This document shows positions 18,679 to 41,664 of a stretch of DNA of 50,897 bases, one piece after another; position 1 is the stretch's first letter; every line of letters starts with the position of its first letter. The position numbers and the translations under genes were made by a program. The stretch is from the NCBI GenBank assembly GCA_013696965.1, contig JACCXN010000022.1, positions 1 through 50,897 of the forward strand. Reading direction: 5' to 3'. The DNA is from Bacteroidota bacterium. Its GTDB lineage: Bacteria; Bacteroidota; Bacteroidia; JACCXN01. The notes under the pieces were generated by a model. The model saw only the letters and a list, made by a program, of their open reading frames with translations, did not search any database and was not told where the DNA came from.

Positions 18679-21600
18679 ATGATTAAAAATATCGATAAAG
18701 CACATTTTATATCTAAAGAATATAAGCCATTCCTGGAGTTCTGGCAAGGGAGACTTAAGCTTGTTGAAAACGGATTTTCCTTTGGAAATAAAATTTCAAC
18801 TGCTGAAACTGCTGTTTATGCAGAACAGCAGATAGTATTGGATAAAACTACTTCTGATCTTTTAATTAGCCTTGTAAAAGGTAGTGACACAGGTGTATTT
18901 GTGACGCTTTTAACCGGCTTTTTCAGCTTGCTTTCCCGTTATACCGGTGAGGCAACAATTATTGTTGATACACCGATATTCAATAATATTAATGGCGATC
19001 ACTTTTCAGATAAAATATCATTAATTAAGCAAGTTGAGCAGGAAAAGAGCATTAAGGATTTGCTCATCGGTATGCAGCAGATTACCACCGAAAGTTATAA
19101 ATATCAGAATTTTCCTGTTGCTGCAGTTCTTGGAAATAATTTAGAAGCTTTAACTAATGTTGCAGCTTCATTTACCAATATTCACCCAATCCATATTAAT
19201 GAAACTAACTATGATTTGTTGCTGGATATTAAGAGGAGCGGAGATGAGATATCCATAATTTTTAAATATAATACCAATGTTTTTGAATCCTGGTTTATTA
19301 ATAATCTCTCAAACCATTATCAAAACATTTTAGCTTCATTCTTCGGATTAAATACACTTTTAAAGGACATTGTGCTTCTTTCAAACACTGAAAGAGTGCA
19401 GCTTTTAAAAGAATTCAATGATACTTCCTGTAAATATCCCGATAAACTGATTCACGAATTGTTTGAGGAGCAGGTTTTAAAAACCCCGGATAACATTGCC
19501 CTTATTTGTGATGGTAAACAGTTTTCTTACCGCGAGCTTAACGAGAAATCCAATCAGCTTGCACATTTTATTAAAGAAAAATTTAATGTTAAGGCCGATG
19601 ATATAATAGGATTATTAACAGACAGAAGTGAAGGGATGATTGTTTCTATTCTTGCTGTTTTAAAAGCAGGAGGAAGTTACCTTCCCATAGATCCTGCGTA
19701 TCCTGCAGACAGAATTAGTTATACCCTCTCTGACAGTGGTTGTAAGTTTGTTTTAACAAAACAGCAGTACAAAAATCTAATTCACAATGACATTGCTGTG
19801 GCTGGTATTGAAGATGAAGAGATACATTCTTTTCCTGTTTCAAATCCTGAATATATTAATAAGCCTGATGATCTTTGCTATATCATTTATACATCCGGAT
19901 CTACAGGAAATCCCAAGGGTGTGATGATTCAGCATTACAATGTGGTGAGGTTGCTTTTCAATGAGCAAAATCTTTTTGATTTTAACGAGAAAGACGTTTG
20001 GTCGCTGTTCCATTCCTATTGTTTTGATTTTTCTGTATGGGAAATGTATGGAGCATTGTTGTTTGGTGGCAAGCTTGTGATTGTACCAAAGCAAATTGCT
20101 CAGAATCCTTCTGATTTTGTGGAGTTGGTAAGAAATGAGCAGGTTACAATCCTCAATCAAACCCCCGGCTCTTTTTATAATTTTATAAATGAAGAAATAA
20201 ATTCATCATCTAAAGAACTTAAACTACGCTATGTGATTTTTGGAGGCGAGGCTCTGCATCCGGCAAGGTTAAGCCAATGGAGGAAAAAGTACCCGGAGAC
20301 AAAGCTTGTTAATATGTATGGTATTACAGAAACTACCGTACACGTAACCTATAAAGAAATTACCAAAAAGGAAATTGATGCTGCAATCAGTAATATTGGT
20401 GTTCCTATTCCTACCCTGAGTTGTTTTGTACTTGATAAATTTCAGAATCTGCAGCCAATAGGTGTTGCAGGTGAGCTTTGTGTTGGAGGAAAAGGGCTTG
20501 CGCGTGGTTATCTAAACAGGGCTGAACTAACCCGGGAGAAGTTTATAGATAATCCTTTTGTAGCGGGAGAAAAACTTTATCGCTCAGGTGATCTTGCTAA
20601 ATATTTGCCTAATGGTGAACTGGAATACCTTGGAAGAATTGATCACCAGGTAAAAATCAGGGGTTTCCGAATTGAACTTGGTGAGATTGAAAACTGCTTA
20701 CAAAAGCACCCATCAATAAAAGAATCAGTAGTAATAGATCGAACAGATGAAAAGGGAGAGAAATATCTTTGCGCGTATATTGTTGGATCAACAGAATCTG
20801 CTATAAACAGTGGAGAGCTGCGTGAATACTTAAAGCAAAGCTTACCGGATTATATTATCCCTGCCTGGTTTATTCCAATGGACAATATTCCATTAACAGG
20901 TAATGGTAAGGTAAATCGCAAAGCACTTCCTCAGCCTGAAACACAATTCACAGGTGCAGCCTATGTAGCCCCTCGTAATCAAATAGAGGAGGAGCTTGTG
21001 AAAATCTGGCAGGAAGTTCTTGGAATAGAGAAAATAGGAGTACAGGATAATTTCTTTGACTTAGGTGGACATTCATTAAAAGCAGCACAACTTATAGCCA
21101 TCGTCCATAAAGAGATGGAGGTAGAAGTGCCTTTTGCATTTATCTTTAATACACCTGTGGTTGAAAATATGGCTGAATATATTTCTTCAGCAGGAAAAAC
21201 CAAATATGCAGCCATACGTCCTGCCGAAAAAAGAGCCTTTTACCCACTCTCTGCAGCCCAAAGAAGAATGTACATTTTAAATGAATTTAAAGGAACCGGG
21301 ACTACTTACAATATGCCGGGCGTTCTTTCAATTGAAGGAAATCTTAATATCTCTAAAGTTGAAAACGCTTTTCAACAGCTTATAGCAAGACAAGAGGCAT
21401 TCCGAACAACATTTGAATTTAAGGATGATAATGCGGTTCAAATTATCAATGAAGATGTTCATTTTAAAATTGAAGTAGAAGAGGCAAGTGAGGATAATAT
21501 AGAAGATCTGATTAAAGATTTTGTAAAGCCTTTTGATTTATCAAAAGCACCTTTGCTGAGAGTGAAGTTGTTGAAAATTAAGCTGGAGAAGTATATCCTG

Positions 21601-24324
21601 TTTTTTGATATGCATCATATCATTTCAGATGGAGTTTCAATGGAGATTCTTGTAAAGGAATTTTTTGCGTTTTATAAAGAGGAAGAACTTTCTCCGCTTG
21701 AAATACAATACAAAGATTTTGCTGTTTGGCAGGATGAGTTAACAAATACCGGTAAGCTTGAAAAGCTCGAAAATTATTGGCTGGAACGTTTTTCTGATGA
21801 TCTAACCCTTCTTGATTTTCCCCTTGATTTTCCACGGCCTGCAGTACAAAAATTTGATGGGGCACATATAAATTTTCAGCTAAGTTTAGAATTAACAGCT
21901 GCACTTAAGAAAATTGCCAGGGAAACCGGCACTACTTTGTATATGGTTCTTTTGGCTGCTTATAAGGTTTTGCTTTCCCGCTGGGCAAACCAGGAGGATA
22001 TTATAGTTGGTACCCCTGTAGCAGGCAGACCTGCCCCTGAGTTGCAAAATATCATAGGTGTTTTTATAAACACACTGGCTTTGCGTAATTCGGTTGCTTC
22101 AGATAAATCTTTTAAAGAATTTTTAGGAGAACTAAAGCAAAAAGTACTGAAAGATTTTGAGCACCAGGAATATCAGTTTGAAAATCTAATTGATAAGTTA
22201 AAGTTAAAGCGTGATACAAGCCGCAATCCATTGTTTGATACAATGTTTACTTATGGTGAAGCAGATGAACAGCAGTTGAAAATTGACGGGCTTGAAATCA
22301 ATCAATATTCCTTTGAAAACAAGAGTTCGAAATTTGATATAACCTTTGGTGGAGCAGAAAAAGAAAATCAAATTTGCATAGCTATTGAATACAGCACAAA
22401 TCTTTTTAAAGAGACGACAATTAAAAGATTTTCAAATCATTTCACCAACATAATTTCAGAGATTGCAATTAATCCTGCAATTAAAATTAAAGACATAGCG
22501 CTTTTATCCGATGCTGAAAAACAGCAGGTGCTGGTTGATTTTAACCAGACTGCAGCAAGTTTCCCAACAGGGAAAACTGTGCACGAGCAAATTGATGAGC
22601 AGGCCGAAAAAACACCTGATAACATTGCACTTGTTTTTGGAGAGAAACAACTTTCGTATAAAGAACTGAAAGAAACAACAGGGAATTTAGCCCAGGTTTT
22701 AAGGGCAAAAGGAGTAAAGCGTGGCGATGTTGTTTCCATTATTTCCTCGCCTTCAAACGAGCTGATGATAAGCATTTTTGCAATTTTAAAAGCCGGGGCT
22801 GCTTATTTGCCAATTGATCCATCTTATCCTGCTGAAAGAATTTCCTATATGTTAAGGGATAGCAATTCAAAAGTACTGCTTACTGATTTGGAGTCAGAAA
22901 TGGTGGATGATTTTAAAGGCGTTTTAATCAATATTAAACAGCAGGAAATCTACCAGGGCAATGGTGTTTGCAAAAATATAAATACAGTAGATGACTCAGC
23001 TTATATAATTTATACTTCAGGTTCTACCGGGCTTCCAAAAGGAGTTGTGGTGCAACATAAAGCCCTGAACAACCTCATTCACTGGCACAACAAGTATCAC
23101 CAGCTAACAGAACAAGACAAGGGTACTAAATATGCTGGTTTTGGATTTGATGCGTCAATCATTGAAACATTCCCTTACTTTGTGAAGGGAGCAGCGCTTC
23201 ATATACTACCTGATAACCTGCGCCTGGACCTTGTGAGGCTGAATCAGTATTTCGAACACAATAACATCACTATCGCTTTTCTTCCCACACCAGTGGCAGA
23301 GCAGTTTATCTTTTTAGAAAATAAGAGCTTAAGGGTACTTAATATTGGAGGAGACAAACTGTCGAAATGGAACCCGACCCCATATAAAATCATAAACAAT
23401 TATGGGCCATCTGAATTTACCTGCGTTACCTCTGTGTATGATGTTAACCAAGCATATGCTAATATCCCAATAGGCAAGCCTGTTTCCAATTCCCGGGTTT
23501 ATGTGCTGGATGCTAATTACAAGCCGCAACCAATTGGCGTAAAAGGAGAAATTTTTGCTTCCGGAGCCAATCTTGCCCAAGGATATTTACATCAGCCGGA
23601 GTTAACTTCAGAAAAGTTTATTCCAGATCCATTTAATCCCGGGCAGTTGATGTACCGCACAGGAGATATAGGCCGATGGTTGCCTGATGGAAACCTTGAG
23701 TTTTTTGGCAGAACCGACCACCAGGTAAAAATAAGAGGATTCAGGATTGAGCTTGGTGAAATACAATCTATTTTGCAAACCCATCCTTACATTACAAAAG
23801 CTGTAGTTTTGGATAGAAAAGATGAGGAAGGAAATAAATTTTTGTGTGCGTACATTGTTGCAAATCAGGAAATTTCCCCTGCTGACCTTCGCCAGTACCT
23901 AGGCAAACAATTGCCGGAATATATGGTTCCTGCTTATTTTATTGAACTGGAGGATTTGCCTCTTACTCAAAATGGGAAAACAGACCTTAATAAACTCAGG
24001 GAAATCAAACTCGAAGGGAATATTATTACCACCGCTGAATTTGTTCCGCCTTCTACCGAAACAGAAGAGAAACTGGTAAAAATATGGCAGCAGGTGCTTA
24101 AAATGGATACAATCGGTATCAAAGACAACTTCTTTGAACTGGGAGGAAATTCGCTAAAAATTGTCAAGCTATTAAAATCGATTGAGGATGTATTTCCAGG
24201 AGCAGTGGAAATTAGTGATTTGTTTGATAAATCAACAATCGAACAGCTTGCAGCGCTTGTTGACAGCAAAAATAATACTTCTGCTGAAACAGAAAAACAG
24301 GAAATCAGAGTAGTTGATTTTTAA
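18679..24324 (+). CDS. Two-module NRPS with N-terminal half condensation domain, c'-A-T-C-A-T
   Basis: The 1881-residue protein starts 6 nt after the previous stop, with AAAGG just upstream of the ATG. Residues 1-240 match only the C-terminal lobe of a condensation domain (FLEFWQGRL entry, then a YKYQNFPV segment and the FNDT exit into A); there is no HHxxxDG lobe. A6 (core near 400) reads DFWNIGMVHK, a Thr code, and is strikingly similar to A5 of the previous protein, with the same CFDFSVWEMYG and MYGITETTVHVT blocks. T serine is 799. A full C domain follows (HHIISDGVS near 979). A7 (core near 1442) reads DAIFNGNCVK, related to the Leu code DAWFLGNVVK but with Ile at 239, Asn at 299 and Cys at 330, so its substrate is uncertain. 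The last T serine is 1825 in GGNSLK. It hands its chain to the KS of the next protein. Confidence 0.97.
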   Translation: MIKNIDKAHFISKEYKPFLEFWQGRLKLVENGFSFGNKISTAETAVYAEQQIVLDKTTSDLLISLVKGSDTGVFVTLLTGFFSLLSRYTGEATIIVDTPIFNNINGDHFSDKISLIKQVEQEKSIKDLLIGMQQITTESYKYQNFPVAAVLGNNLEALTNVAASFTNIHPIHINETNYDLLLDIKRSGDEISIIFKYNTNVFESWFINNLSNHYQNILASFFGLNTLLKDIVLLSNTERVQLLKEFNDTSCKYPDKLIHELFEEQVLKTPDNIALICDGKQFSYRELNEKSNQLAHFIKEKFNVKADDIIGLLTDRSEGMIVSILAVLKAGGSYLPIDPAYPADRISYTLSDSGCKFVLTKQQYKNLIHNDIAVAGIEDEEIHSFPVSNPEYINKPDDLCYIIYTSGSTGNPKGVMIQHYNVVRLLFNEQNLFDFNEKDVWSLFHSYCFDFSVWEMYGALLFGGKLVIVPKQIAQNPSDFVELVRNEQVTILNQTPGSFYNFINEEINSSSKELKLRYVIFGGEALHPARLSQWRKKYPETKLVNMYGITETTVHVTYKEITKKEIDAAISNIGVPIPTLSCFVLDKFQNLQPIGVAGELCVGGKGLARGYLNRAELTREKFIDNPFVAGEKLYRSGDLAKYLPNGELEYLGRIDHQVKIRGFRIELGEIENCLQKHPSIKESVVIDRTDEKGEKYLCAYIVGSTESAINSGELREYLKQSLPDYIIPAWFIPMDNIPLTGNGKVNRKALPQPETQFTGAAYVAPRNQIEEELVKIWQEVLGIEKIGVQDNFFDLGGHSLKAAQLIAIVHKEMEVEVPFAFIFNTPVVENMAEYISSAGKTKYAAIRPAEKRAFYPLSAAQRRMYILNEFKGTGTTYNMPGVLSIEGNLNISKVENAFQQLIARQEAFRTTFEFKDDNAVQIINEDVHFKIEVEEASEDNIEDLIKDFVKPFDLSKAPLLRVKLLKIKLEKYILFFDMHHIISDGVSMEILVKEFFAFYKEEELSPLEIQYKDFAVWQDELTNTGKLEKLENYWLERFSDDLTLLDFPLDFPRPAVQKFDGAHINFQLSLELTAALKKIARETGTTLYMVLLAAYKVLLSRWANQEDIIVGTPVAGRPAPELQNIIGVFINTLALRNSVASDKSFKEFLGELKQKVLKDFEHQEYQFENLIDKLKLKRDTSRNPLFDTMFTYGEADEQQLKIDGLEINQYSFENKSSKFDITFGGAEKENQICIAIEYSTNLFKETTIKRFSNHFTNIISEIAINPAIKIKDIALLSDAEKQQVLVDFNQTAASFPTGKTVHEQIDEQAEKTPDNIALVFGEKQLSYKELKETTGNLAQVLRAKGVKRGDVVSIISSPSNELMISIFAILKAGAAYLPIDPSYPAERISYMLRDSNSKVLLTDLESEMVDDFKGVLINIKQQEIYQGNGVCKNINTVDDSAYIIYTSGSTGLPKGVVVQHKALNNLIHWHNKYHQLTEQDKGTKYAGFGFDASIIETFPYFVKGAALHILPDNLRLDLVRLNQYFEHNNITIAFLPTPVAEQFIFLENKSLRVLNIGGDKLSKWNPTPYKIINNYGPSEFTCVTSVYDVNQAYANIPIGKPVSNSRVYVLDANYKPQPIGVKGEIFASGANLAQGYLHQPELTSEKFIPDPFNPGQLMYRTGDIGRWLPDGNLEFFGRTDHQVKIRGFRIELGEIQSILQTHPYITKAVVLDRKDEEGNKFLCAYIVANQEISPADLRQYLGKQLPEYMVPAYFIELEDLPLTQNGKTDLNKLREIKLEGNIITTAEFVPPSTETEEKLVKIWQQVLKMDTIGIKDNFFELGGNSLKIVKLLKSIEDVFPGAVEISDLFDKSTIEQLAALVDSKNNTSAETEKQEIRVVDF

Positions 24325-24398: not shown

Positions 24399-27300
24399 AT
24401 GAAAGATATAGCCATAATAGGAGTAGCCGGGCGTTTTCCGGAAGCAAAAAACATTGATGAACTTTATCATAATTTAAAAGCGGGCAAAGACAGTTCACGT
24501 CCTTTATCTAAAGAAAGGTTAAAGTCAACTACTTCAGCGGTAAATAAAAAATATAAAGTTTTTGCCTGGCTAGATGATGTTGATAAATTTGACCACAAGC
24601 TTTTTAATATATCTCTTGCTGAGGCTCAGAATATGGATCCTCACCAGCGCTTAATGCTGGAAGTGGCCTATGAAACATTCGAAAGTTCCGGTTATAGCAT
24701 TGATCATTTTTTTGGCTCAAATACGGCTGTTTATGCAGGGGATGTAATACTGAAATATTGGGAGCTTGCAGAGAAATATGATCCTACACTATTCACCGGA
24801 AATATAAATGCAGCTACAGCAGGACGAATAGCACGTTTTTTTAATCTTCGCGGCAGTGCAATGATGATTGATACCAACTGTTCCTCAACTCTTGTGGCAA
24901 CTCATTTGGCATGTAATGAACTTGCTGCTGGCGATGCCGGTCATGCACTTGTTTGTGGAGTAAGAATAGTAATTAAACCCGAGGAAGAGGAAGGTGGTGC
25001 TGATTTGGGTATCATGACTCAGGACGGTAAAACAAAATCTTTTTCTGCCGCAGCCGATGGCACCAGTGCAGGAGAAGCTGTTGCTGCTGTGCTTTTAAAA
25101 CCTTTGGATAAGGCTCTTGCCGATAATGATATTATTTATGCAGTAATTAAAGGTTCTGCTTTAAATCAAGATGCCCAGTTATCGGGTAGCCTTACCGCAC
25201 CAAGCAGTGCTGCACAGGCTGAGGTTATTTGCAAAGCCTGGAAAAAAGCGGATATTGATCCGCTAACAATATCCTACATTGAACCTCACGGAAGTGGAAC
25301 TAAACTCGGAGATCCGATAGAAATTCAAGGAATTGACCAGGCATTTAAAGGCTTAACCGATAAAAAGAATTTTATTTACGCCTCTGCATTAAAGTCAAAT
25401 ATAGGCCACACAGACACAGTTGCTGGCCTATCAGGATTAATTAAAACTGTTCTTTCCCTTAAAAATAAAGAATTATTTCCAACTCTTCATTTTGATGCAC
25501 CTAACCCATTTATAGATTTTAAAAACTCAGTTATTGCCATAAATACCCAGTTAAAGAAGTGGGATGTGCCAGAGGGGCAGCCACGAAGGGCAGGAGTAAG
25601 TTCATTTGGGCTTAGCGGAACTAATTGTCATATTATTTTAGAGGAAGCTCCCGAAAGAAAAGCTTCAGCAACCACCGATGAAAAAGCCTGGTTAATAAAT
25701 ATTTCATCACGAAACACAAAAGTGTTTGCAGCAAATCTTCAGGAATTAAAAAGATTTATTGAAGAAAATCCAACTACTTCAATTGCCGATATTAGCCATA
25801 CTTTAAACCGTGGCAGAAAACACTACAACTACAGGTTTTCGGTGCTTTGCAAAAATATAGAATCTATAAAAGAGGCAATAGAGAACTTCTTACCAAATCT
25901 ATCAAATGAGTTTAAAGCATCAAAAGAATTAAAAAAACTGTTCTTTATATTCTCTGACAATACCGGAACAGATGAAGGTTTAATAAATCATTTTATTTCT
26001 AGATATCCTTCTTTCACTGAAGATTATGAAGCTTGTTTAAGGGCTGCATCAGGAATTGAGAATGAAAACATTAAAACTTTTGCTTTTCAATTTGCTTATT
26101 ACAAATTATTTGAAAAATGCGGAATAACATCTCCAAATGTAATGGGTATTGGCTTGGGAAGAGCTGTTATTGACGTAATTACCGGAGGTAAAACCTTAGA
26201 AGATGCATTGAAAACTGTAGTTGATTGTAAACAAACTGCAGTAGAGGAATTAAATAAAAGATTAACAGCGCTTGTTGAAAGAGAAGCTGCCAAGGAGAAA
26301 GTTGCTTTTATTGAAATAGGAACAGCCGGAACGCTGATAGGTGGATTGAAAAATTTAAACTTAGAAAATCAGGAAAATATTTTTGAAGTTTTTGATTTAA
26401 ATGACAATAATGAAGAAGTTTTAAAAGAATTTTTCAGCTCACTTTATCTTTCAGGGTATAATGTTAACTGGCAAAAAGCACATCCTCAAAATTCAGGTCA
26501 AAAAATTAAATTGCCAGCCTATAAGTTTGAGCCCATACGATGCTGGGTGAAAGAGCCGGTAGATGAAAATGATGAAGAATTACAAATTGATATAAATGCC
26601 AAAAATCAGCAGGAAAAAGCAGTTGCAGAAAACTCTGAATTTGTTTCCAATGTGAAAATTGATGAAAGCTGGACACCTATTGAGCAAAAAATAGCGCTAC
26701 TGTGGGTGGAGGTTCTTAAATTAGAAGAAATTGCCTTAGATGATGATTTCTTTGATATAGGAGGGCATTCCCTTATTGCAACACAAATAATCAGCAGGAT
26801 TGAGAAAGTGTTTCAGGTGAAGATTGAATTCACTGATATGTTTGATTATCCTACCATAAGAACACTTGCAGAGGAGGTAGAAAAACAGTCGGAGGTACAG
26901 TTAAAAGATGAGACTGAAAAAGAACCGACAACTTCTCCGACTCAATTACACTATCCACTTTCTGCTGCTCAAAACAGGCTTTGGGTATTAGATCAATTAG
27001 AAGGGGGAGGGACAACCTACAACCTTCCGGGGGTAATGATTCTGGAGGGTAAATTAGATAATCCAAAATTTAAAAAGTCCTTTCAGAAGTTGGTTGAAAG
27101 ACACGAGAGCTTACGTACTTCCTTCCATACCGAAAATGGAGATTTAGTGCAGCTGGTTAATCAACAGGTAGAATTTAAAATTACTTATAAAACAGCTGAA
27201 GAAAGCCAACTCGATAAAATTGTAAATGATTTTGTAAGACCTTTTGATTTATCGAAAGCACCGCTATTTAGAATTGAGCTGGTTGAAATAAATAAAGAAA

Positions 27301-30300
27301 AGCACCTGCTGTTAATGGACATTCATCACATTATTGCTGATGGTGTTTCTCTTAGAATAATCTTTAATGACTTTGTACAGATATACGCAGGTCAGCAATT
27401 GCCTGAGCTTAAAATTCAATATAAAGATTATTCTTTATGGCAGCATTCGTTTTTTCAAAGTGAAGAATTTAAAAAGCAGGAAATTTATTGGTTGAATAAG
27501 TTCTCCGGTGAATTACCGGTGCTTAATCTTGTTTCAAATTTTCCCAGACCTGCCATTCAGAATTTTTCAGGAGAGAAACTGAGTTTTAATTTATCTAAGG
27601 AAGACACTGCAAATATTCGCAGTCTTTCAGGTGAAAATGGAGCTACAATTTATATGACTTTGTTAGCTGCCTATAATGTGCTGTTGTATAAATATACCTC
27701 ACAAGAAGATATAGTTGTAGGTTCTGTTATAGCAGGTAGAAAAAAGAAAGAGTTTGAGAACATCCTCGGGATGTTCGTAAATACGCTTGCTATGCGAAAC
27801 CATCCTTCTGCAGAAAAATCTTTTACTGCTTTTCTTGCAGAGGTTAAATCAACTGCACTGGAGGCTTATTCAAACCAGGATTTCCCTTTTGAGGCATTGG
27901 TTAATAATCTTGGATTGCAACGTGATATGAGCCGTAATCCGCTTTTTGATACTTTAATTACCTATCAGAATTTTTTCAAAGATGATCATTCAAAAGTTAA
28001 TGTAAATGAACTATCCATTTTGCCGTATCCTTTTGAAAATAAAACGTCAAAATTTGATTTAACCTTTGAGTTTTTTGAGGGAGCTGATGCACTGAAACTT
28101 CAGATAGAATATTGTACACATCTCTTTAATAAAGAAACCATTGAAAGACTTTTCGCACATTTTATCCAAATAATAAGAAGTGTTTCAGAAAATAAAAATA
28201 TTGCTTTAGCTGATATTAATCTTTTATCTACTGAAGAAAAAGAACAGCTGCTTGTTAATTTTAATCCTACTGTTAAAACTGAAAATATAAATGAAACTGT
28301 TGTTTCTGCATTTGAAAAACATCTGCTTCAGAATCCTAATAATGTTGCAATTTCAGATGGTAATAGAACAATTTTATATAATGAACTTAATGAAAAGGCA
28401 GAAAATATTGCAGCTCTGCTTCTTAAAAAAGGCTTGGTTAAAGAGGGTGTTGTTGGGGTATTTCTTAATGCTTCGGCAGAATGGCTGTATAGCATTTTAG
28501 GTGTTTTAAAAGCAGGTGGGGCTTATTTGCCAATTGATCCTGCTTATCCTGCCGAAAGAATAGATTTTATGCTTAAAGACAGTGGAGCAAAAATTTTATT
28601 AACTGATAAAACACTATTTCATAAATCAGCATTTAGTGGTGAAGTAATTGATATTACAGAAGCAGCTAATAATATTAATAATGGGGGTGTTAAGTCAGTG
28701 ATTGCTCCTGAAAACCTTGCTTATATTATTTACACCTCAGGTTCTACCGGACAACCCAAAGGCGTTGGTGTTGAACATTCTGCATTGTTTAACCTTTGCA
28801 GCTGGCATAATAATCAATATAACATAACTGCTGCTGATAAAGCCACAAAATATGCCGGACTAGGCTTTGATGCCTCTGTCTGGGAGATTTTTCCATACCT
28901 GGTTTCAGGAGCTTCTGTTACCATTGTTCCTGAAGATATAAGGATGGATATGAGAAAGCTGAACAACTTCTATGAATCGAATGGAATTAGTGTAAGTTTT
29001 CTTCCCACACAAATTGCAGAGCAATTTATGGAGCAGGAAAATTCATCGTTGCGTTTGCTGCTGACAGGAGGTGATAAATTAAGGAGCTTTAAAAAGCAGA
29101 GGTATGATGTGGTTAACAATTACGGTCCTACAGAAAATACCGTTGTGAGTACCTCATTTAAACTTGACAGGTTTTATGAAAATATTCCAATAGGTAAGCC
29201 TGTTGATGGTACGCGTGTTTATATCCTGGATAAAAAAGGAAATCCACAACCTGTGGGTGTGCCGGGCGAATTGTGTGTTGCAGGAAATAATCTTGCAAGA
29301 GGATATATAAATCAACCGGAACTAACAGCACAAAAATTTGTTGCTGATCCTTTTGTTGCAGGTGAAAAAATGTACCAAACAGGCGACCTTGCAAAATGGT
29401 TGCCTGATGGAAACATAGAGTTTTTAGGAAGAATTGACGCGCAAGTTAAAATTAGGGGCTATAGAATAGAATTAGGTGAAATTGAAAATCAACTGCTAAG
29501 TTTTTCCGGGATAAAAGACGCTGTTGTTATTGATGTTGAGGAAAAAGACGCGCAGAAGTTTTTATGTGCTTATATAGTAAGTGAAACAGCAGTTGATACT
29601 TCCTTGTTAAAAGAACATTTAGCTGCGAAGCTACCGGATTATATGGTTCCGCTTCATTTTATTTCTCTTGAAAAAATTCCTTTGAATGCAAATGGAAAGG
29701 TGGACAGAAAAGCTTTGCCGCTTCCGGATGAAAGTTTAAAAACTTCAAGAGCATATGTAGCCCCTATTACAGAAACAGAAGTAAAACTTTCCAAACTTTG
29801 GAGTGAATCTTTAAATATTGAAAAACCAAGCACAGAAGACAATTTTTTTGAACTTGGTGGACATTCCTTAAAGGCAACGCAAATTATTTCCCGGGTTTAC
29901 AAAGTGTTTGAGAAAGAAGTTCCGCTAAGAGAGATTTTTAGAAACCCTACAATTAAAGGACTTGCGGCATTTATTGAGTCTGCTGAAAAATCAGCATTTG
30001 TTTCTATTTCCAATGTTGAGAAAAGGGAGTTTTATCCGCTTTCTGCTTCGCAAAGAAGACTATATATTTTAAACCAGTTTCAGCAGGATAATACAAGCTA
30101 TAATATCCCTGGAGCATTAGCAATTGAAGGACAACTCGATACTGAAAAGTTTGAAGGAGCTATAAAAAAGGTCATTCAGAGGCACGAGAATCTAAGAACA
30201 GCTTTTGTTTTTAATAATGGAGAACCGGTACAGATTATAAAAGAAGATGTAGCGTTTAATCTTTCTTGCCGCGAATCCTCTGAGAATGAGGCAAAAGACT

Positions 30301-33300
30301 TACTGAAAGATTTTGTAAAACCTTTTGATTTAGAACAGCCACCTTTAATTAGGGCAGAGCTGATAAAAATAGCAGAAAATAAGCATTACTTCTTGTTTGA
30401 TATGCACCACATCATCAATGATGAAGTGTCAATGAATATCTTAATAAATGAATTTGCTGCTTTGTATGAGGGTAAAGAGCTTGAACCTCTTAAATTCCAA
30501 TATAAAGACTTTGCCAATTGGCAGAATAATCGTATAGCCTCTGGTACTTCAGATAATCAGAAAAAATTCTGGTTGGGCCAGTTCAAGGATGAAATTCCGG
30601 TACTTGAACTTCCTGCCGATTTTAAAAGACCGGCTTCTAAAAGCTTTAAAGGAAACAGGATTTCTCTGAATTTAAATTTTGAAACATCTCAAAAATTAAG
30701 ACACATAGCGCTTTCGGCAGGAGCAACTTCTTACCAACTATTTTTAACAGCTTTTAATGTGCTGCTTTCAAAATATTCAGGTAGTGAAGACATTGTTGTG
30801 GGAACACCTATTGCCGGCAGAAATCATCCTGACCTGGATAAAATTATAGGGGTTTTCATAAACACGCTTGCACTAAGAAACTTTCCCAAAAAAGATATTT
30901 CCTTTTTATCATTTTTAAAGAATGTTAAGGAAAAATTTATTGAAGCCAATGAAAACAGTGATTATCAGTTTGAGGAATTAATTGGTGAACTCTCTTTAAA
31001 ACGTGATTTAAGCCGCCACCCGCTTTTTGATGTGCTTTTTGTTTTCCAAAGTGCCGGTGAGAGTTCAAATTTCGCATCATCGGGTTTAAATTTTAAACCC
31101 TTAGAATTTCCTTCTAAATCTTCAAAATTTGATATCACTTTTACCATAGCAGATTCAGGGGAAGATTTTAAAATTTTTATTGACTATAGCACCGACTTAT
31201 TTAAAAAAGAAACAATTGAAAAGCTTCAATGCCATTTTGTTCAATTGCTACAGTCTGTAATTCAAAAGCCGGACTCAAAGCTTCAGGACCTTAAACTTAT
31301 TTCTAAAGAAGAAGAACAATTACTTTTAAATGGGTTTAACAATACTTTAAAGAATCATCCAGATAGCGGAAAAGCCATTCATCAGTGGTTTGAAGAGCAG
31401 GTAGAAGGAAATACTTCAAAGGGAATAGTATTTAAAAATGAGAATTTAACTTTTGAAGAGTTAAATATAAAAGCCAATCAATTAGCTCATAAATTAACCA
31501 GGTCCGGAGCAGATAAAAACCAGGTTGTAGCTATTATAACCGAAAGATCATTGGATATGATCACAGGAATTCTGGCAGCTTTAAAATCCGGAAGTGCTTT
31601 TTTACCAATAGATCCTGATTATCCCCAGGAAAGAATTGATTTTGTTCTAAAGGATTCAAATGCCACCATTTTACTTACACAAAGTCACTTAAAGGAGAAA
31701 GCTGATTTTGCAGGTAAAATTATTTTTATTGATGATGCGGCATTCCAACAAGAAGATAATTCAAACCTTTTATGTAACACGAAAGCCGATGATTTAGCAT
31801 ATATTATTTATACTTCCGGCTCAACCGGTAAACCCAAAGGAACTAAGTTAACACATAAGAATCTCAATAACTATGTTTCCTGGTTTATAGAAAATCAGCA
31901 GGTAAAAAAACAGGATAAAACAACACTCATTCATTCATTTGGATTTGATGGTTCCTTTACCAATATTTTTGGTGCTTTGCTTTGCGGACACGAGCTGCAC
32001 ATTATACCTAAAGAATTTCTTGTTGATCCTGAACAATTGCTAAAATATGTTCAAACGGAGCAGATTTCCTATATGAAATTTACTCCTTCACTTTTCAGTG
32101 TGTTTGTAAATTCGGAAGCCTTCAATCAATACGATTGCAGCTCTTTAAGAATGATAATGCTTGGAGGAGAAGCTATAAGTACCGCTGATGTTGAGAAATA
32201 TCATTTAAAATATCGTAACACAGTTTTTGTAAATCATTACGGACCTACTGAAACTACTATTGGCTCTATAGCTCAGGCCATAGATTTTAATTGTTGGGAA
32301 GATTATAAACATCTTCCTTCCATTGGTTATCCAATTGACAATACCCAGGTTTATATTCTTGAGGCTTCCTTGCAGCTTTGTCCAATGGGAGTAGTTGGGG
32401 AGTTGTGTATTTCAGGAGATGGTGTAAGTGTTGGGTATTTAAACCGGGAGGATTTAACTTTAGAAAAATTTGTAGTTAATCCCTTTGATTCTTCTAAGAA
32501 AATGTACCGTACAGGAGATATGGCCAAATGGCTGCCGGATGGACGGGTGTTATTTTTAGGCAGGAGAGATGAACAGGTTAAAATCAGAGGATATCGTATA
32601 GAAACAGGAGAGATTACGGAAGCTGTTTTATCTTTAAAATCGATTTCTGAAGCAGTTGTCGTTGATAGGGAAGATGCCTCAGGCAGTAAATATTTGTGTG
32701 CTTATTTCACAAGTGAAAATGAGGTAGCTATTTCAGAAATTAAAAAAGAGCTTGCCAGGATATTGCCTGAATATATGGTTCCTGCATTTTTTGTGCAGCT
32801 GGATAAAATCCCGGTAACAGCTCACGGTAAGGTGGATAAAAGAGCGCTACCGTTGCCAACACTTCAAAGAATTGCAGAAAAAGAGTTTATAGCACCAAGA
32901 ACAATCACAGAGGAAAAGCTGACTGAAATTTGGAAAGTTGTTTTAGGCCAGGAAAAGATTTCTGTTGATGATAACTTTTTTGAAGTTGGCGGACATTCAC
33001 TAAAAGCCGCAGTTCTTGCAGGAAAAATTTTTAAAGAATTCCAGGTGAAGGTTAGTTTAAAACAAATCTTTGAGCTGCCCACCATTGAAGCACTTGCTCA
33101 AATTTTGGAAAACAAGGAGAACGAGGTTTTCTTATCCATTGAACCAGCACCAGTTTTAGAGGAATATCCTTTATCCTCTGTTCAGAGAAGAATGTATGTT
33201 TTGCAGGAGTTTGACGGAGCAGAGATTACTTACAATCTTCCTATGGCTATGAAAGTGTCAGGAAAAATTGATAAGAAACGTTTTGAAAATGCTTTTAAGG

Positions 33301-36300
33301 AGCTTATAAATAGACACGAGAGCTTAAGAACTTCATTTGAACTTAAAAAGAATCAGTTTGTTCAGCGTGTAATCAGTAATATTGATTTTAAAGTTGAATT
33401 TATTGAATGTTCGGAGTTACAAGCAAAAGCCCTGGCAGATAGTTTTATAAAGCCGTTCAACTTAAATTACCCACCTTTATTCCGGGTAACACTCGTTTCA
33501 ACTTTGCCTTCAGAGCACCTTCTGCTCATTGATATGCATCATATAATTTCTGATGGAACATCCACGGCAATTTTAATTGATGAGTTTTTATCAATTTACG
33601 AGGGTAAAGAAATAAAACAGTTGGCACTTCAGTATAAAGATTATGCTTACTGGCAAAATCAAAGTGAGCAGTTGCTGGTAAAAGAGGAGCAGGCAAACTA
33701 CTGGAAAAACAAATTGTCAGGAGAAATACCCGTAATGAATTTCCCTACCGATTTCCAAAGGCCGGCAGTGCAGGATTTCAGGGGCGGACATATTTTTAAA
33801 AGCATAGATAAAGAAACTGTTCAGCAGTTAAAGCAGCTTGCAAACTCCACTGGAAGCACGCTCTATATCTTACTTTTAACAGCTTACAATGTGCTGCTGC
33901 ATAAGTACACCCAACAGGAAGATTTTATTGTTGGAAGTCCCGTAGCTGGCCGTGTTCACCCAGACCTGGAGCCGGTTGTAGGGCCGTTTGCAAATACGGT
34001 TGTTTTGAGAAATCATCCAAAAAGCGAAAAAACTTTTAGTGAATTTATAGCTGAAGTAAAGGATACTGTTTTAAATGCAATGGAACGGCAGGATTTTCCT
34101 TTTGAGGAATTGCTGGGGCTTTTAAAGGTAGAAAGAGATGTGAGCAGGAACCCGCTATTTGATACGCTCTTTGCATATCAGAATTACCAGCGTAACAGCA
34201 TGGAAGTAGCAGATGCAGGCCTGTCCTTCTCGCCTTACCAATTCGAATACAATATTTCAAAATTCGATATAAGCCTTGTTATACAAGGAGAAGATGAATT
34301 AGAGCTTGGGCTTGAATATGCCTTTAGCCTTTTCTCGGAGCAAACAATGGAAACTTTTTTAAGCAGCTATATCAACCTGCTTCATTATATTTTAAAAAAT
34401 CCAACAGCTCAAATATCAGATATTGATTTTATGTCTGCTGAAGAAAAACATAAAATCCTTGTTGAGTTTAATAATACCGCTTCTAAATGGCCAAAGGACA
34501 AAACGATAGTTCAGCTTGTTGAGGAATTTGTAGAAAGAGAGCCTGAAAAAATTGCACTTGTTTTCGGGGAGCAAAAAATGACCTATGGCGAGCTCAATAA
34601 AAAAGCAAATCAACTTGCCAGGAAATTAAGAGGTTTAGGTGTAAAACCAGATGATCGTGTAGGTTTAATCATTGACAGAAATTTTGATATTTATATTAGC
34701 ATCCTGGGAATCCTTAAAGCCGGAGGTGCGTATGTTCCTATAGATCCAAAAAATCCCTGGGATAGAACCCTGTATATGCTGGAAGACAGCCAGACAAAAA
34801 TTATTGTTACCCAAGAGCATTTGCTTGATATTATTGACTTTGAAGGTACTGTCGTCAATGTAAATGATGCTGCTATTTTTAAAGCAGAAGATACGAACTT
34901 AGCTCTGGTAAACAAATCAACAGATCTTGTTTATATGATCTATACTTCCGGATCTACAGGAAAACCTAAGGGCGTTATGCTGGAGCATCAGAATGTGGTA
35001 AGTTATGCAATGAACTTTAAAACGGAGTACAGCATTGATACAGACAAAGACATTATGCTTAGTCTTACCCGTATAAGTTTTGATATGTCAAACACCGAGC
35101 ATACTGCAAGTATGATAAACGGTATTACAATGGTTATTACAACCACAGAAGAAAGTAACGATCCTCAGCAGCTTTCAGAAATTATAATGCGCACCGGAGC
35201 AAATGTTATGCAGTTTACGCCATCAAGGCTTACGCTTATGTTCAGTGCTGTTGGAGATGAGTTTTTAAATACTGTAAATATCCTTCTTGTTGGTGCTGAA
35301 GCTTTGCCTGTTTCTTTAAATAAGAAATTGCTGCAATACAAGCATCTAAAGGTTTACAATGTTTATGGTCCAACAGAAGCTACTACCTGGAGTACCGGTA
35401 CTTTAATTGAAGAAAACAGAATCACCATTGGTAAGCCTCACCTGAATGAACATGTGTATGTTTTAAATGATAAACTACAAGTAGTTCCTACTGGCGTTTC
35501 AGGAGAAATATGTGTTTCAGGGCCTGGTGTTGGCAGAGGATATACTGACCAAATTCTTTCTAAAGTAAAATTTGTTGAGAATCCTTTTATACAAGGAGAA
35601 AGAATGTACCGCACGGGAGATTTAGGCAGATGGTGGCCTGATGGACATTTGGAATTTATCGGAAGAAGTGATTTCCAGGTTAAAATAAGGGGTTACAGAA
35701 TTGAGCTGGGAGAGATTGAAAACACCTTGCTTGAATATCCTGCAATTACAGAAGTAATCGTATTGGTTAAAGAAAAAGCAGATGCGAAAGACCTTGTAGC
35801 TTATATGGTTTGTAAAGATGAGGTGAATATTGAAGAGCTGAATGAGCATCTTTTAAAAACCCTGCCTGAATATATGGTTCCGGCACATTATGTAAGACTC
35901 GAGCAAATGCCGCTGAACGAGAACGGAAAGCTTGACAGGAAAAAACTTCCTGAACCTTTTGGAAATGTTACTTCTGCCAAAGACTTTACCGCTCCGGTAT
36001 CGGCAACAGAAATTGCCCTTGCAGGGATATGGAAACTAATTCTTGAAGTGGATAAAATAAGCACCCGCGATAATTTCTTTACGCTTGGAGGAAATTCTCT
36101 TAAAGCAGTAGCACTTGTTTCTAAGGTGAAGGAAATCACACAGCAGGAGATTCCTTTCACCATCATCTTCAATTACCCAACCATTGAAAAAATGGCTGCA
36201 TTCCTGGAAGAAAAAAATCAGCAAGCAGAACAGTCAGAAGAGCTAACGCTTTTGAATGAGAAGAAAGAGAAGAATATTTTCGCCTTTCCGCCTGCCATAG

Positions 36301-36917
36301 GATATTCCATTGCCTATAGCGACCTTGCCGGGCAGATGAAAGAGTATTCTTTTTACGGATTCAATTTTATTGAAAACGAGGACAGGCTTAAAATTTATGC
36401 TGATAAAATTATAGCAATTCAGCCTAAAGGTGATTATACTTTATTTGGATATTCTGCAGGAGGAAATTTGGCTTTCCAGGTAGCAAAAGCGCTTTCTGAA
36501 AGAGGTAAAAAAGTGGATGTAGTTATGATAGACTCTTATTTGCGACAAAAGCCGGAGCCGGTAACCGCTGCAGAAAAAGAGGAATATGCAAAACTATATA
36601 TCAGTGATGATTCTGATCATATCTCTAACAGGTATTTAACCAGTGAAGCTATGAAAAAGGCGGCTGTAAGAAAGATTGGTGGCTATTATGATTACCTGCG
36701 CAAAACACCGGACTATGGAAAGATAAACGGAGAAATTTTATTGCTTCGTTCAGAAACCGAAAAAGCCGGAGACAATGGCAGAGAAAGCTGGAAAACTGCC
36801 GGAACAGGTTTAAGAGTTTACCAGGGAGTTGGAGAGCACGCTGCTATGTTCAATGAAGAATATTTTAATACCAACTTTTCTTTGATTTTAAAAATGCTGC
36901 ATAAGGACAAAAATTAA
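24399..36917 (+). CDS. Hybrid PKS-NRPS with terminal thioesterase, KS-AT*-T-(C-A-T)x3-TE
   Basis: The 4172-residue protein begins MKDIAIIGVAGRFPEA, a KS start. KS active residues are intact: Cys161 (DTNCSS), His297 (EPHGSGT) and His337 (SNIGH). Residues about 430-715 are a shrunken AT: GHSxG is replaced by GIGLG at 583-587, the GQGSQ motif is lost, and the segment with the catalytic His is missing, but a PAYKFEP exit remains. T serine is 791. No KR, DH or ER is present. C domains have HHIIADGVS (976), HHIINDEVS (2003, Gly to Glu) and HHIISDGTS (3047). A8 DAWFLGNVVK is the Leu code; A9 DGTKMGHIGK is close to Asp (DLTKVGHIGK); A10 DMTQLGVTWK is weakly Gly-like. T serines are 1823, 2867 and 3900. 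The TE has GYSAGG with Ser4019, Asp4045 and His4147, the spacing seen in surfactin TE, so it should release the chain by cyclisation or hydrolysis. Confidence 0.97.
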   Translation: MKDIAIIGVAGRFPEAKNIDELYHNLKAGKDSSRPLSKERLKSTTSAVNKKYKVFAWLDDVDKFDHKLFNISLAEAQNMDPHQRLMLEVAYETFESSGYSIDHFFGSNTAVYAGDVILKYWELAEKYDPTLFTGNINAATAGRIARFFNLRGSAMMIDTNCSSTLVATHLACNELAAGDAGHALVCGVRIVIKPEEEEGGADLGIMTQDGKTKSFSAAADGTSAGEAVAAVLLKPLDKALADNDIIYAVIKGSALNQDAQLSGSLTAPSSAAQAEVICKAWKKADIDPLTISYIEPHGSGTKLGDPIEIQGIDQAFKGLTDKKNFIYASALKSNIGHTDTVAGLSGLIKTVLSLKNKELFPTLHFDAPNPFIDFKNSVIAINTQLKKWDVPEGQPRRAGVSSFGLSGTNCHIILEEAPERKASATTDEKAWLINISSRNTKVFAANLQELKRFIEENPTTSIADISHTLNRGRKHYNYRFSVLCKNIESIKEAIENFLPNLSNEFKASKELKKLFFIFSDNTGTDEGLINHFISRYPSFTEDYEACLRAASGIENENIKTFAFQFAYYKLFEKCGITSPNVMGIGLGRAVIDVITGGKTLEDALKTVVDCKQTAVEELNKRLTALVEREAAKEKVAFIEIGTAGTLIGGLKNLNLENQENIFEVFDLNDNNEEVLKEFFSSLYLSGYNVNWQKAHPQNSGQKIKLPAYKFEPIRCWVKEPVDENDEELQIDINAKNQQEKAVAENSEFVSNVKIDESWTPIEQKIALLWVEVLKLEEIALDDDFFDIGGHSLIATQIISRIEKVFQVKIEFTDMFDYPTIRTLAEEVEKQSEVQLKDETEKEPTTSPTQLHYPLSAAQNRLWVLDQLEGGGTTYNLPGVMILEGKLDNPKFKKSFQKLVERHESLRTSFHTENGDLVQLVNQQVEFKITYKTAEESQLDKIVNDFVRPFDLSKAPLFRIELVEINKEKHLLLMDIHHIIADGVSLRIIFNDFVQIYAGQQLPELKIQYKDYSLWQHSFFQSEEFKKQEIYWLNKFSGELPVLNLVSNFPRPAIQNFSGEKLSFNLSKEDTANIRSLSGENGATIYMTLLAAYNVLLYKYTSQEDIVVGSVIAGRKKKEFENILGMFVNTLAMRNHPSAEKSFTAFLAEVKSTALEAYSNQDFPFEALVNNLGLQRDMSRNPLFDTLITYQNFFKDDHSKVNVNELSILPYPFENKTSKFDLTFEFFEGADALKLQIEYCTHLFNKETIERLFAHFIQIIRSVSENKNIALADINLLSTEEKEQLLVNFNPTVKTENINETVVSAFEKHLLQNPNNVAISDGNRTILYNELNEKAENIAALLLKKGLVKEGVVGVFLNASAEWLYSILGVLKAGGAYLPIDPAYPAERIDFMLKDSGAKILLTDKTLFHKSAFSGEVIDITEAANNINNGGVKSVIAPENLAYIIYTSGSTGQPKGVGVEHSALFNLCSWHNNQYNITAADKATKYAGLGFDASVWEIFPYLVSGASVTIVPEDIRMDMRKLNNFYESNGISVSFLPTQIAEQFMEQENSSLRLLLTGGDKLRSFKKQRYDVVNNYGPTENTVVSTSFKLDRFYENIPIGKPVDGTRVYILDKKGNPQPVGVPGELCVAGNNLARGYINQPELTAQKFVADPFVAGEKMYQTGDLAKWLPDGNIEFLGRIDAQVKIRGYRIELGEIENQLLSFSGIKDAVVIDVEEKDAQKFLCAYIVSETAVDTSLLKEHLAAKLPDYMVPLHFISLEKIPLNANGKVDRKALPLPDESLKTSRAYVAPITETEVKLSKLWSESLNIEKPSTEDNFFELGGHSLKATQIISRVYKVFEKEVPLREIFRNPTIKGLAAFIESAEKSAFVSISNVEKREFYPLSASQRRLYILNQFQQDNTSYNIPGALAIEGQLDTEKFEGAIKKVIQRHENLRTAFVFNNGEPVQIIKEDVAFNLSCRESSENEAKDLLKDFVKPFDLEQPPLIRAELIKIAENKHYFLFDMHHIINDEVSMNILINEFAALYEGKELEPLKFQYKDFANWQNNRIASGTSDNQKKFWLGQFKDEIPVLELPADFKRPASKSFKGNRISLNLNFETSQKLRHIALSAGATSYQLFLTAFNVLLSKYSGSEDIVVGTPIAGRNHPDLDKIIGVFINTLALRNFPKKDISFLSFLKNVKEKFIEANENSDYQFEELIGELSLKRDLSRHPLFDVLFVFQSAGESSNFASSGLNFKPLEFPSKSSKFDITFTIADSGEDFKIFIDYSTDLFKKETIEKLQCHFVQLLQSVIQKPDSKLQDLKLISKEEEQLLLNGFNNTLKNHPDSGKAIHQWFEEQVEGNTSKGIVFKNENLTFEELNIKANQLAHKLTRSGADKNQVVAIITERSLDMITGILAALKSGSAFLPIDPDYPQERIDFVLKDSNATILLTQSHLKEKADFAGKIIFIDDAAFQQEDNSNLLCNTKADDLAYIIYTSGSTGKPKGTKLTHKNLNNYVSWFIENQQVKKQDKTTLIHSFGFDGSFTNIFGALLCGHELHIIPKEFLVDPEQLLKYVQTEQISYMKFTPSLFSVFVNSEAFNQYDCSSLRMIMLGGEAISTADVEKYHLKYRNTVFVNHYGPTETTIGSIAQAIDFNCWEDYKHLPSIGYPIDNTQVYILEASLQLCPMGVVGELCISGDGVSVGYLNREDLTLEKFVVNPFDSSKKMYRTGDMAKWLPDGRVLFLGRRDEQVKIRGYRIETGEITEAVLSLKSISEAVVVDREDASGSKYLCAYFTSENEVAISEIKKELARILPEYMVPAFFVQLDKIPVTAHGKVDKRALPLPTLQRIAEKEFIAPRTITEEKLTEIWKVVLGQEKISVDDNFFEVGGHSLKAAVLAGKIFKEFQVKVSLKQIFELPTIEALAQILENKENEVFLSIEPAPVLEEYPLSSVQRRMYVLQEFDGAEITYNLPMAMKVSGKIDKKRFENAFKELINRHESLRTSFELKKNQFVQRVISNIDFKVEFIECSELQAKALADSFIKPFNLNYPPLFRVTLVSTLPSEHLLLIDMHHIISDGTSTAILIDEFLSIYEGKEIKQLALQYKDYAYWQNQSEQLLVKEEQANYWKNKLSGEIPVMNFPTDFQRPAVQDFRGGHIFKSIDKETVQQLKQLANSTGSTLYILLLTAYNVLLHKYTQQEDFIVGSPVAGRVHPDLEPVVGPFANTVVLRNHPKSEKTFSEFIAEVKDTVLNAMERQDFPFEELLGLLKVERDVSRNPLFDTLFAYQNYQRNSMEVADAGLSFSPYQFEYNISKFDISLVIQGEDELELGLEYAFSLFSEQTMETFLSSYINLLHYILKNPTAQISDIDFMSAEEKHKILVEFNNTASKWPKDKTIVQLVEEFVEREPEKIALVFGEQKMTYGELNKKANQLARKLRGLGVKPDDRVGLIIDRNFDIYISILGILKAGGAYVPIDPKNPWDRTLYMLEDSQTKIIVTQEHLLDIIDFEGTVVNVNDAAIFKAEDTNLALVNKSTDLVYMIYTSGSTGKPKGVMLEHQNVVSYAMNFKTEYSIDTDKDIMLSLTRISFDMSNTEHTASMINGITMVITTTEESNDPQQLSEIIMRTGANVMQFTPSRLTLMFSAVGDEFLNTVNILLVGAEALPVSLNKKLLQYKHLKVYNVYGPTEATTWSTGTLIEENRITIGKPHLNEHVYVLNDKLQVVPTGVSGEICVSGPGVGRGYTDQILSKVKFVENPFIQGERMYRTGDLGRWWPDGHLEFIGRSDFQVKIRGYRIELGEIENTLLEYPAITEVIVLVKEKADAKDLVAYMVCKDEVNIEELNEHLLKTLPEYMVPAHYVRLEQMPLNENGKLDRKKLPEPFGNVTSAKDFTAPVSATEIALAGIWKLILEVDKISTRDNFFTLGGNSLKAVALVSKVKEITQQEIPFTIIFNYPTIEKMAAFLEEKNQQAEQSEELTLLNEKKEKNIFAFPPAIGYSIAYSDLAGQMKEYSFYGFNFIENEDRLKIYADKIIAIQPKGDYTLFGYSAGGNLAFQVAKALSERGKKVDVVMIDSYLRQKPEPVTAAEKEEYAKLYISDDSDHISNRYLTSEAMKKAAVRKIGGYYDYLRKTPDYGKINGEILLLRSETEKAGDNGRESWKTAGTGLRVYQGVGEHAAMFNEEYFNTNFSLILKMLHKDKN

Positions 36918-40279: not shown

Positions 40280-41002
40280 GTGAAAAAAACAATTAATTTA
40301 TTCTTTCTTCCCTTTGCAGGAGGGAGTTCTTACTCTTACAGTAATTTCTCATCCTTGTTGCTGCCACATATAAATTGTGTTCCTATTGAATTACCAGGAA
40401 GAGGCAAGCGGAGCAAGGAAGAATTATTAACTGATGCGCATATTATAGCGGAGGATATTTATAATCAGATTAAAGAAATTATTCATTCAGGTGAGGAATA
40501 TGGGATTTTTGGCCATAGTATGGGGGCATTGCTTGGTTATCTTTTATTACATAAAATAAAACTAAACAACCTTCCATTTCCCATTCATTTTTTTGCCTCA
40601 GGCAGAGGTGGCCCATCCTACCTTAATGAGAGGGAAATTTATTATCTGCTTCCAAAACAGGAATTCAGAGAAAAATTAAAAGAGCTGGGAGGCAGTCCAA
40701 AAGAAGTGCTGGAACATGAAGTTTTAATGGATTATTTTGAACCCATACTAAGAGCAGATTTTCAGGTTGTAGAAACTTATTTTCATAAGGAACAGGAGAA
40801 GTTGAAAGTACCCTTTAGTGTTTTTTTAGGTGATGAAGACAAAATAAGCCTTGAGGCTGCAAAATGTTGGCAACTGGAAACAAGTTCCCCCATAAAAATC
40901 CATCAATTCCAGGGAGATCATTTTTTTTTAATACCCCATGTTAAAAGTATATGTAATATAATCTCTGCTGAATTGGATAATGATAAAGCAAAAGTAAATT
41001 GA
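40280..41002 (+). CDS. Type II thioesterase of NRPS/PKS cluster
   Basis: The 240-residue alpha/beta hydrolase starts at GTG. It has the N-terminal LFFLPFAGGS and PIELPGRG motifs typical of stand-alone NRPS-associated (GrsT/SrfD-like) thioesterases. The nucleophile is Ser80 in GHSMG; GDEDK with Asp187 and QGDHFFL with His214 complete the triad. The known role is hydrolytic removal of misprimed acyl groups or stalled intermediates from carrier proteins. It overlaps the next gene by three bases and has its own candidate promoter, so editing and carrier activation are transcribed together, apart from the megasynthase genes. Confidence 0.94.
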   Translation: MKKTINLFFLPFAGGSSYSYSNFSSLLLPHINCVPIELPGRGKRSKEELLTDAHIIAEDIYNQIKEIIHSGEEYGIFGHSMGALLGYLLLHKIKLNNLPFPIHFFASGRGGPSYLNEREIYYLLPKQEFREKLKELGGSPKEVLEHEVLMDYFEPILRADFQVVETYFHKEQEKLKVPFSVFLGDEDKISLEAAKCWQLETSSPIKIHQFQGDHFFLIPHVKSICNIISAELDNDKAKVN

Positions 41003-41664
41003 TAAGCATATTCTATACTTATTGTAAAGAGCCGTTTTCTAAAGAGGTATGGAGCCGCCATTTACAAAGCCTTCCTGTTGCCCTTCACGAAAAAATAACT
41101 TCTTTTAAAAGATGGCAGGACAGGCAATCTTCTTTAATAGGTAAATTACTGCTAAAAGAAGCATTAAAAAGAAACGGATATTCAGGAAATAGTTTACAGG
41201 ATTTAAAATACAATCATTATAACCGCCCCTATTTTGACTTACCAATGGATTTTAATATTTCACATTCCGAAGAACTGGTAATTTGCGCATGGAGCAATAA
41301 GGGAAAGATAGGTGTTGATGTGGAAGCAATAAAACCTATTGATTTTAATGACTTAAAAAAGGCAATGAATGAAAAAGAATGGGCGTTGATTCAAAATTCA
41401 ACAGATTCATTAAGGGAATTCTATAAATACTGGTCAATTAAAGAAAGTGTATTGAAAGCAGAGGGTAGCGGCTTGTCAATTTTATTGGAAGATATGGTTA
41501 TTACCGATACTGAAGTCATTTTGCAAAAAAACAAATGGCATATTCAGGAACTGCTTTTGAATAATAACTATAGCTCCTGGATTGCCTTTAATGACACCAT
41601 TGATACTTTGCAAATTGAAGAAATAGTATTTTATGGCAGTGAAATAATAAATGCTAAAAAATAG
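40999..41664 (+). CDS. Sfp-type 4'-phosphopantetheinyl transferase
   Basis: The 221-residue protein has the family signatures: NISHSEE (residues 86-92), IGVDVEAI with Asp107 and Glu109 as Mg2+ ligands, and YWSIKESVLKAEG with Trp145, Lys148, Glu149 and Lys153. The length fits Sfp/Gsp-type enzymes, which load phosphopantetheine from CoA onto carrier serines; at least 12 T domains in this window would be its substrates. The start is a TTG whose last two bases form part of the TGA stop of the thioesterase gene (TTGA), implying coupled translation. No strong Shine-Dalgarno sequence is visible. Confidence 0.94.
   Translation: MISIFYTYCKEPFSKEVWSRHLQSLPVALHEKITSFKRWQDRQSSLIGKLLLKEALKRNGYSGNSLQDLKYNHYNRPYFDLPMDFNISHSEELVICAWSNKGKIGVDVEAIKPIDFNDLKKAMNEKEWALIQNSTDSLREFYKYWSIKESVLKAEGSGLSILLEDMVITDTEVILQKNKWHIQELLLNNNYSSWIAFNDTIDTLQIEEIVFYGSEIINAKK

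Follow-up and report, generated by a model that had tools for sequence, protein, structure and literature searches.

The window analysed here, which comprises the whole of contig JACCXN010000022.1 (50,897 nt) of a Bacteroidota bacterium, encodes an NRPS/PKS module whose acyltransferase (AT) domain is reduced to a half-size core without its catalytic residues. This module, which lacks a ketoreductase (KR), is probably active in chain extension and supplied with malonate in trans, most likely by FabD, while the pseudo-acyltransferase (psiAT) is presumably retained as a spacer.

The shrunken acyltransferase

The module forms residues 1–830 of an uninterrupted open reading frame of 4172 aa (24399–36917, forward strand) and has the order KS-(shrunken AT)-ACP, with no KR (Table 1). 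The KS motifs TNCSST (residues 159–164, with Cys161), EPHGSGT (295–301, His297) and KSNIGH (332–337, His337) and the ACP motif GGHSL (788–792, Ser791) were each located in the translation, with the four catalytic residues at the positions given in the original prediction, which had described both domains as looking intact. The motif PAYKFEP (residues 706–712, nt 26514–26534), reported there as a surviving part of the AT exit, is likewise present and lies inside the longer exit motif.

In the intervening region, SDNTG (residues 519–523) occupies the position of GQGSQ, Gly585 stands where the AT serine is expected, and a deletion has removed ~120 residues, among them the AFHS histidine. The absence of GQGSQ, the replacement of GHSxG by GIGLG and the loss of the catalytic-His segment had all been proposed beforehand and were confirmed by the translation, by a hidden Markov model (HMM) and by alignment with 16 intact ATs. 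The nucleophile position is occupied by Ser in 16 of 16 intact ATs, the core measures 163 residues as opposed to 304–314, and the segment from LEDAL to FIEIG spans 32 residues rather than 151–154, with no AFHS. No intact Ser-His pair was found in this alignment, and neither residue of the AT dyad is present in the module. Judged by its position in the FabD fold, the deletion presumably takes away the small subdomain together with a portion of the large subdomain.

The AT model PF00698 gave no match in the module, whereas the Pfam models for the KS, the linker and the ACP did. An HMM built from 15 intact ATs of other genomes, with 200 shuffled sequences as a control, matched residues 505–714 as three collinear pieces with a total E-value of 2e-16 (best shuffle 0.55), so that the homology of the psiAT to ATs goes beyond chance. 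Its middle piece (FvveYaLaklwislGikPsaliGHSlGefvAAclagvfsledaLklva) pairs with FAFQFAYYKLFEKCGITSPNVMGIGLGRAVIDVITGGKTLEDALKTVV, placing GHS opposite GIG. The same pairing was obtained in a profile comparison with FabD only, at a non-significant E-value of 0.06. Comparison with a profile of intact PKS ATs was significant over the C-terminal 85 columns only, and the assignment of the N-terminal half therefore rests on the collinear HMM pieces, the PDB sequence search and the structural models.

AlphaFold2 (AF2) modelled the fragment with a pLDDT of 80.4 and a pTM of 0.77, and with values of 86.2 and 0.89 when the KS was included; the Streptomyces plasmid sequences described below were left out of this modelling, and because the input alignments contained intact ATs, the models count only partly as independent evidence. 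They place a strand at residues 580–583 and a helix from residue 585/586, and according to them the psiAT holds a nucleophile elbow without a nucleophile. A Foldseek search with the model retrieved AT and KS-AT structures (best E-value 5e-15). Most of these alignments span ~440 columns although the query has 320 residues, which fits a large internal gap. The modelling and comparison with KS-AT didomains that had been recommended with the original prediction returned a confidently predicted half-AT fold.

Table 1. Coordinates of the module and of associated features in the window
Feature	Position (nt)	Strand	Evidence or remarks
Upstream NRPS protein; terminal PCP as likely peptide donor to the KS	18679..24324	+	domain motifs
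KS domain, aa 1–416	24399..25646	+	PF00109 E 5e-61, PF02801 E 6e-36; Cys161/His297/His337 intact
KS-AT linker / flanking subdomain, aa 430–500	25686..25898	+	PF22621, PF22336 and PF16197 above cut-offs
Pseudo-acyltransferase (psiAT) half core, aa 514–676	25938..26426	+	intact-AT HMM, AF2 model, Foldseek
Nucleophile elbow GIGLG, aa 583–587, replacing GHSxG	26145..26159	+	Gly585 codon 26151–26153
Short connector, aa 605–635	26211..26303	+	intact ATs are ~120 residues longer here and contain the AFHS histidine
Post-AT linker with exit motif LPAYKFEPIRCW, aa 705–716 (LPxYxFx5W)	26427..26549	+	
ACP, aa 760–826, phosphopantetheine Ser791	26676..26876	+	PF00550 E 1e-17
Three C-A-PCP modules and thioesterase, remainder of the 4172-aa protein	26877..36917	+	domain motifs
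4'-Phosphopantetheinyl transferase near the cluster	40999..41664	+	PF01648 E 3e-14

Relatives and conservation

A search of plasmid proteins identified two Streptomyces megaplasmids (NBC_01450 and NBC_01483) whose products share 40% identity with the module across the whole KS-AT. A profile search in a second genus of the class to which the window's genome belongs returned eight full-length matches in 7 of 250 genomes (G529, G881, G828, G910 with two copies, G916, G939 and G924). The Streptomyces modules (L047 and L048, 20001–22106), which are the nearest relatives of the window module, are unannotated and reside on plasmids predicted to be mobilizable. Transfer of the psiAT module between phyla is suggested. 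The two modules of G910 (L064, 1413–19965, and L063) belong to different groups; in one of the two clusters, the neighbours are an aminotransferase and a pair of intact cis-AT KS-AT-ACP modules, and the AT of a neighbouring module could act as donor there.

Glycine occupies the nucleophile position in all 11 members, that is, the window module and ten relatives from two phyla, and the deletion lies at the same place. The half core measures 147–163 residues throughout, the KS Cys/His/His residues and the ACP serine are invariant (11/11), and the members examined all show the order KS-psiAT-ACP-C at the N-terminus of the protein. Decay by chance, or misassembly of a single genome, for which nothing spoke other than the draft state of that genome (106 contigs), has a negligible probability and is refuted by the relatives: the 4172-aa reading frame is unbroken, and both the deletion and the glycine recur in ten other sequences. 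Residual AT activity in cis was also rejected, both catalytic residues being gone in all members, as were readings of the region as a chance motif or as the result of a frameshift.

In pairs of closest relatives (L047/L048, L049/L050, L012/L049, L012/L050 and L053/L054), dN/dS was ~0.11–0.34 for the psiAT core as compared to 0.06–0.11 for the KS. Judging from these ratios, the remnant is under purifying selection, more relaxed than the KS yet maintained, which by itself points to no particular function. The psiAT and the linker are the fastest-changing parts of the module.

Contig scans with the AT stretch of the window and with its KS yielded no confirmed relative, and searches at the order and family level took in three genomes only. 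At the class level, a search with the single AT stretch gave partial matches only, and the psiAT profile, applied to 395 genomes across the class, recovered the window's own genome and elsewhere just C-terminal matches. The psiAT type is thus rare in the class.

In the KS tree, which is small (39 sequences), the window module grouped with the Streptomyces modules and one group of the other genus (support 100/99), and all 11 psiAT members fell together (85/69). The 11 members were united there with seven trans-AT KSs, separately from the cis-AT KSs (100/97), while two other trans-AT sequences were placed among cis-AT ones. The best PDB sequence matches of the window KS were headed by trans-AT KSs such as PksL. 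The original prediction had envisaged a cis-AT module turned into a trans-AT-dependent one. Dependence on an AT in trans agrees with the loss of both catalytic residues, but a recent or local conversion does not hold, since deletion and glycine are common to ten relatives in two phyla, whose KSs are also those with which the window KS groups. The psiAT form is accordingly an old one that the members have in common.

Proposed acyl donor and working of the module

With both AT catalytic residues missing, the module is expected to need an AT acting in trans. It shows several features of a trans-AT module, with KS and ACP catalytic residues complete at the sequence level and no functional AT in cis, and FabD is the only free-standing AT in the genome. 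As stated originally, no AT gene lies in the window; the whole genome (3.86 Mb, scored 100% complete) has a single PF00698 protein, which scores above the cut-off of the FabD equivalog model TIGR00128 and represents the free-standing malonyl-CoA AT that had been proposed as a search target. FabD is also the sole AT-family protein in four of the seven related genomes (G529, the single-contig G881, G939 and G924). The remaining three (G828, G910 and G916) contain additional AT domains, and on each of the two Streptomyces plasmids a free-standing AT-like ORF of 307 aa is present at a long distance from the module, so that donors may differ and FabD need not serve everywhere. In pseudotetraivprolide biosynthesis, malonylation by FabD has been demonstrated for the ACP of PipC, which has no AT of its own (PMC12828459), and heterologous production of barnesin indicates FabD as the AT (PMC13096860). 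Given these precedents and its status as the only AT in the genome, FabD would be the most likely malonyl donor for the window module.

The contig opens inside an NRPS gene (positions 1–1650 of the window), and the assembly line is therefore longer than the window shows. Because the window is the entire contig, a dedicated trans-AT gene might be located in an unassembled upstream part of the cluster. This is rather unlikely, as the genome was scored complete with one AT and the relatives, one of them assembled in a single contig, likewise have FabD only; in the window's own genome assembly, in which this contig starts inside the cluster, no dedicated trans-AT was found.

Under the favoured reading, in which the module extends the chain with malonate supplied in trans, the peptide would pass from the terminal PCP of the upstream NRPS protein to Cys161 of the KS, while Ser791 of the ACP would receive malonate from an AT made elsewhere, most likely the FabD of fatty-acid synthesis. 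Decarboxylation and condensation by the KS would then generate a peptide extended by a beta-keto unit, the module having no KR, and this peptide would be handed on to the next C domain. Alternatively, the KS and ACP could do no more than pass the peptide along to the C domain that follows, making malonate and an AT unnecessary, in line with the absence of a working cis AT and of an identified dedicated AT. Non-extending KSs typically lack one catalytic residue; here all three, including both histidines required for decarboxylation, are invariant in the 11 members, making a relay without extension improbable.

In the extending module, the psiAT itself would carry out no chemistry. Flanked by the KS-AT linker on one side and, on the other, by the post-AT linker leading back to the KS, its half-size core would fill the space in between; it may further offer a surface to the incoming AT. 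A spacer between the two linkers is the simplest role, and the remnant is plausibly structural, as the original prediction had suggested in its mention of a structural linker. The glycine sits at a strained strand-turn-helix elbow and may persist together with the fold; its conservation alone is no proof of a new function. A dedicated docking domain that positions FabD or another trans AT for the ACP, instead of a passive spacer, would account for the retention of a folded psiAT, which ordinary trans-AT modules do not have. Those modules, including PipC with FabD, nevertheless function without a half core of this kind (PMC12828459), and the rapid change of psiAT and linker provides no pointer to a conserved FabD interface; we consider such a dedicated docking function unlikely. 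Similarly unlikely is the proposal of a conserved family of AT pseudoenzymes, having lost the small subdomain and carrying a fixed glycine for the catalytic serine, that recruits housekeeping FabD to the NRPS/PKS line; if true, the pseudoenzyme would be a built-in adaptor joining fatty-acid synthesis to secondary metabolism.

Elsewhere in the assembly line, the upstream NRPS protein starts with a condensation domain of which only the C-terminal half is left (18679–19413); this half lacks HHxxxDG and aligns with the latter half of other C domains at an E-value of 1e-12. The protein directly before it ends in a complete C domain. Going by its sequence, the half domain is, after the psiAT, another vestigial domain of this assembly line. 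In the second NRPS module of the 4172-aa protein, HHIINDE replaces HHxxxDG of the C domain (30405–30425). The NRPS genes are followed by genes for a PLP-dependent dehydratase-like enzyme (36956–37900), a type II thioesterase (40280–41002) and the phosphopantetheinyl transferase, all of which may belong to the cluster.

Comparison with known systems

According to the literature, all that trans-AT modules retain is a KS-AT linker remnant (PMC11775670), and another study describes co-evolution of the KS with both the flanking subdomain and the LPTYPFx5W motif (PMC11260071). The window module retains both the flanking subdomain and a motif of this type. However, it does not have the canonical docking remnant, in which the linker alone separates KS and exit motif: the exit motif lies at residue 706, compared with ~568–591 in canonical trans-AT loci of the phylum and ~860 in cis-AT modules. 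Modules of the PksL type (bacillaene) share the active KS, ACP, linker and LPxYxFx5W motif and the lack of a working cis AT, but PksL has 27 residues where the window module has 165 and keeps a half AT core with its elbow. Cis-AT didomains (DEBS, CurL) share with it the fold of the retained segments and their order, whereas the window module is devoid of ~120 residues, the Ser and the His.

PipC, of a detoxin/rimosamide-like system, is also an AT-less NRPS/PKS module loaded by FabD in a genome without a dedicated trans-AT, but differs by description in having a modelled AT docking domain, a KR and a TE (PMC12828459); its ACP was also observed to acylate itself when highly concentrated. BrnF (barnesin A) is a trans-AT PKS of an NRPS/PKS pathway with FabD indicated as its AT; in contrast, it contains reducing domains, and no pseudo-AT has been reported for it (PMC13096860). 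PepC (pepstatin, Streptomyces catenulae), compared by description only, is a KR-less KS-AT-ACP protein of an NRPS pathway whose AT was called truncated, although its authors class it as cis-AT (PMC12081711); it may be a member of the psiAT clade. A search of the open literature with a few phrases found no description of a conserved clade of half-ATs with Gly in place of Ser. The psiAT module is filed as a variant of trans-AT modules and not as a new kind of system.

For annotation, the failure of PF00698 to detect the psiAT means that such modules are taken for ordinary AT-less ones. A folded half-AT with a fixed Gly elbow in two phyla represents a natural case for seeing which part of an AT is structurally needed by a KS module, and the clade provides a defined site for testing trans-AT docking. 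Genomes with FabD as their only AT are clean systems in which to ask how often the FabD of primary metabolism feeds type I modules.
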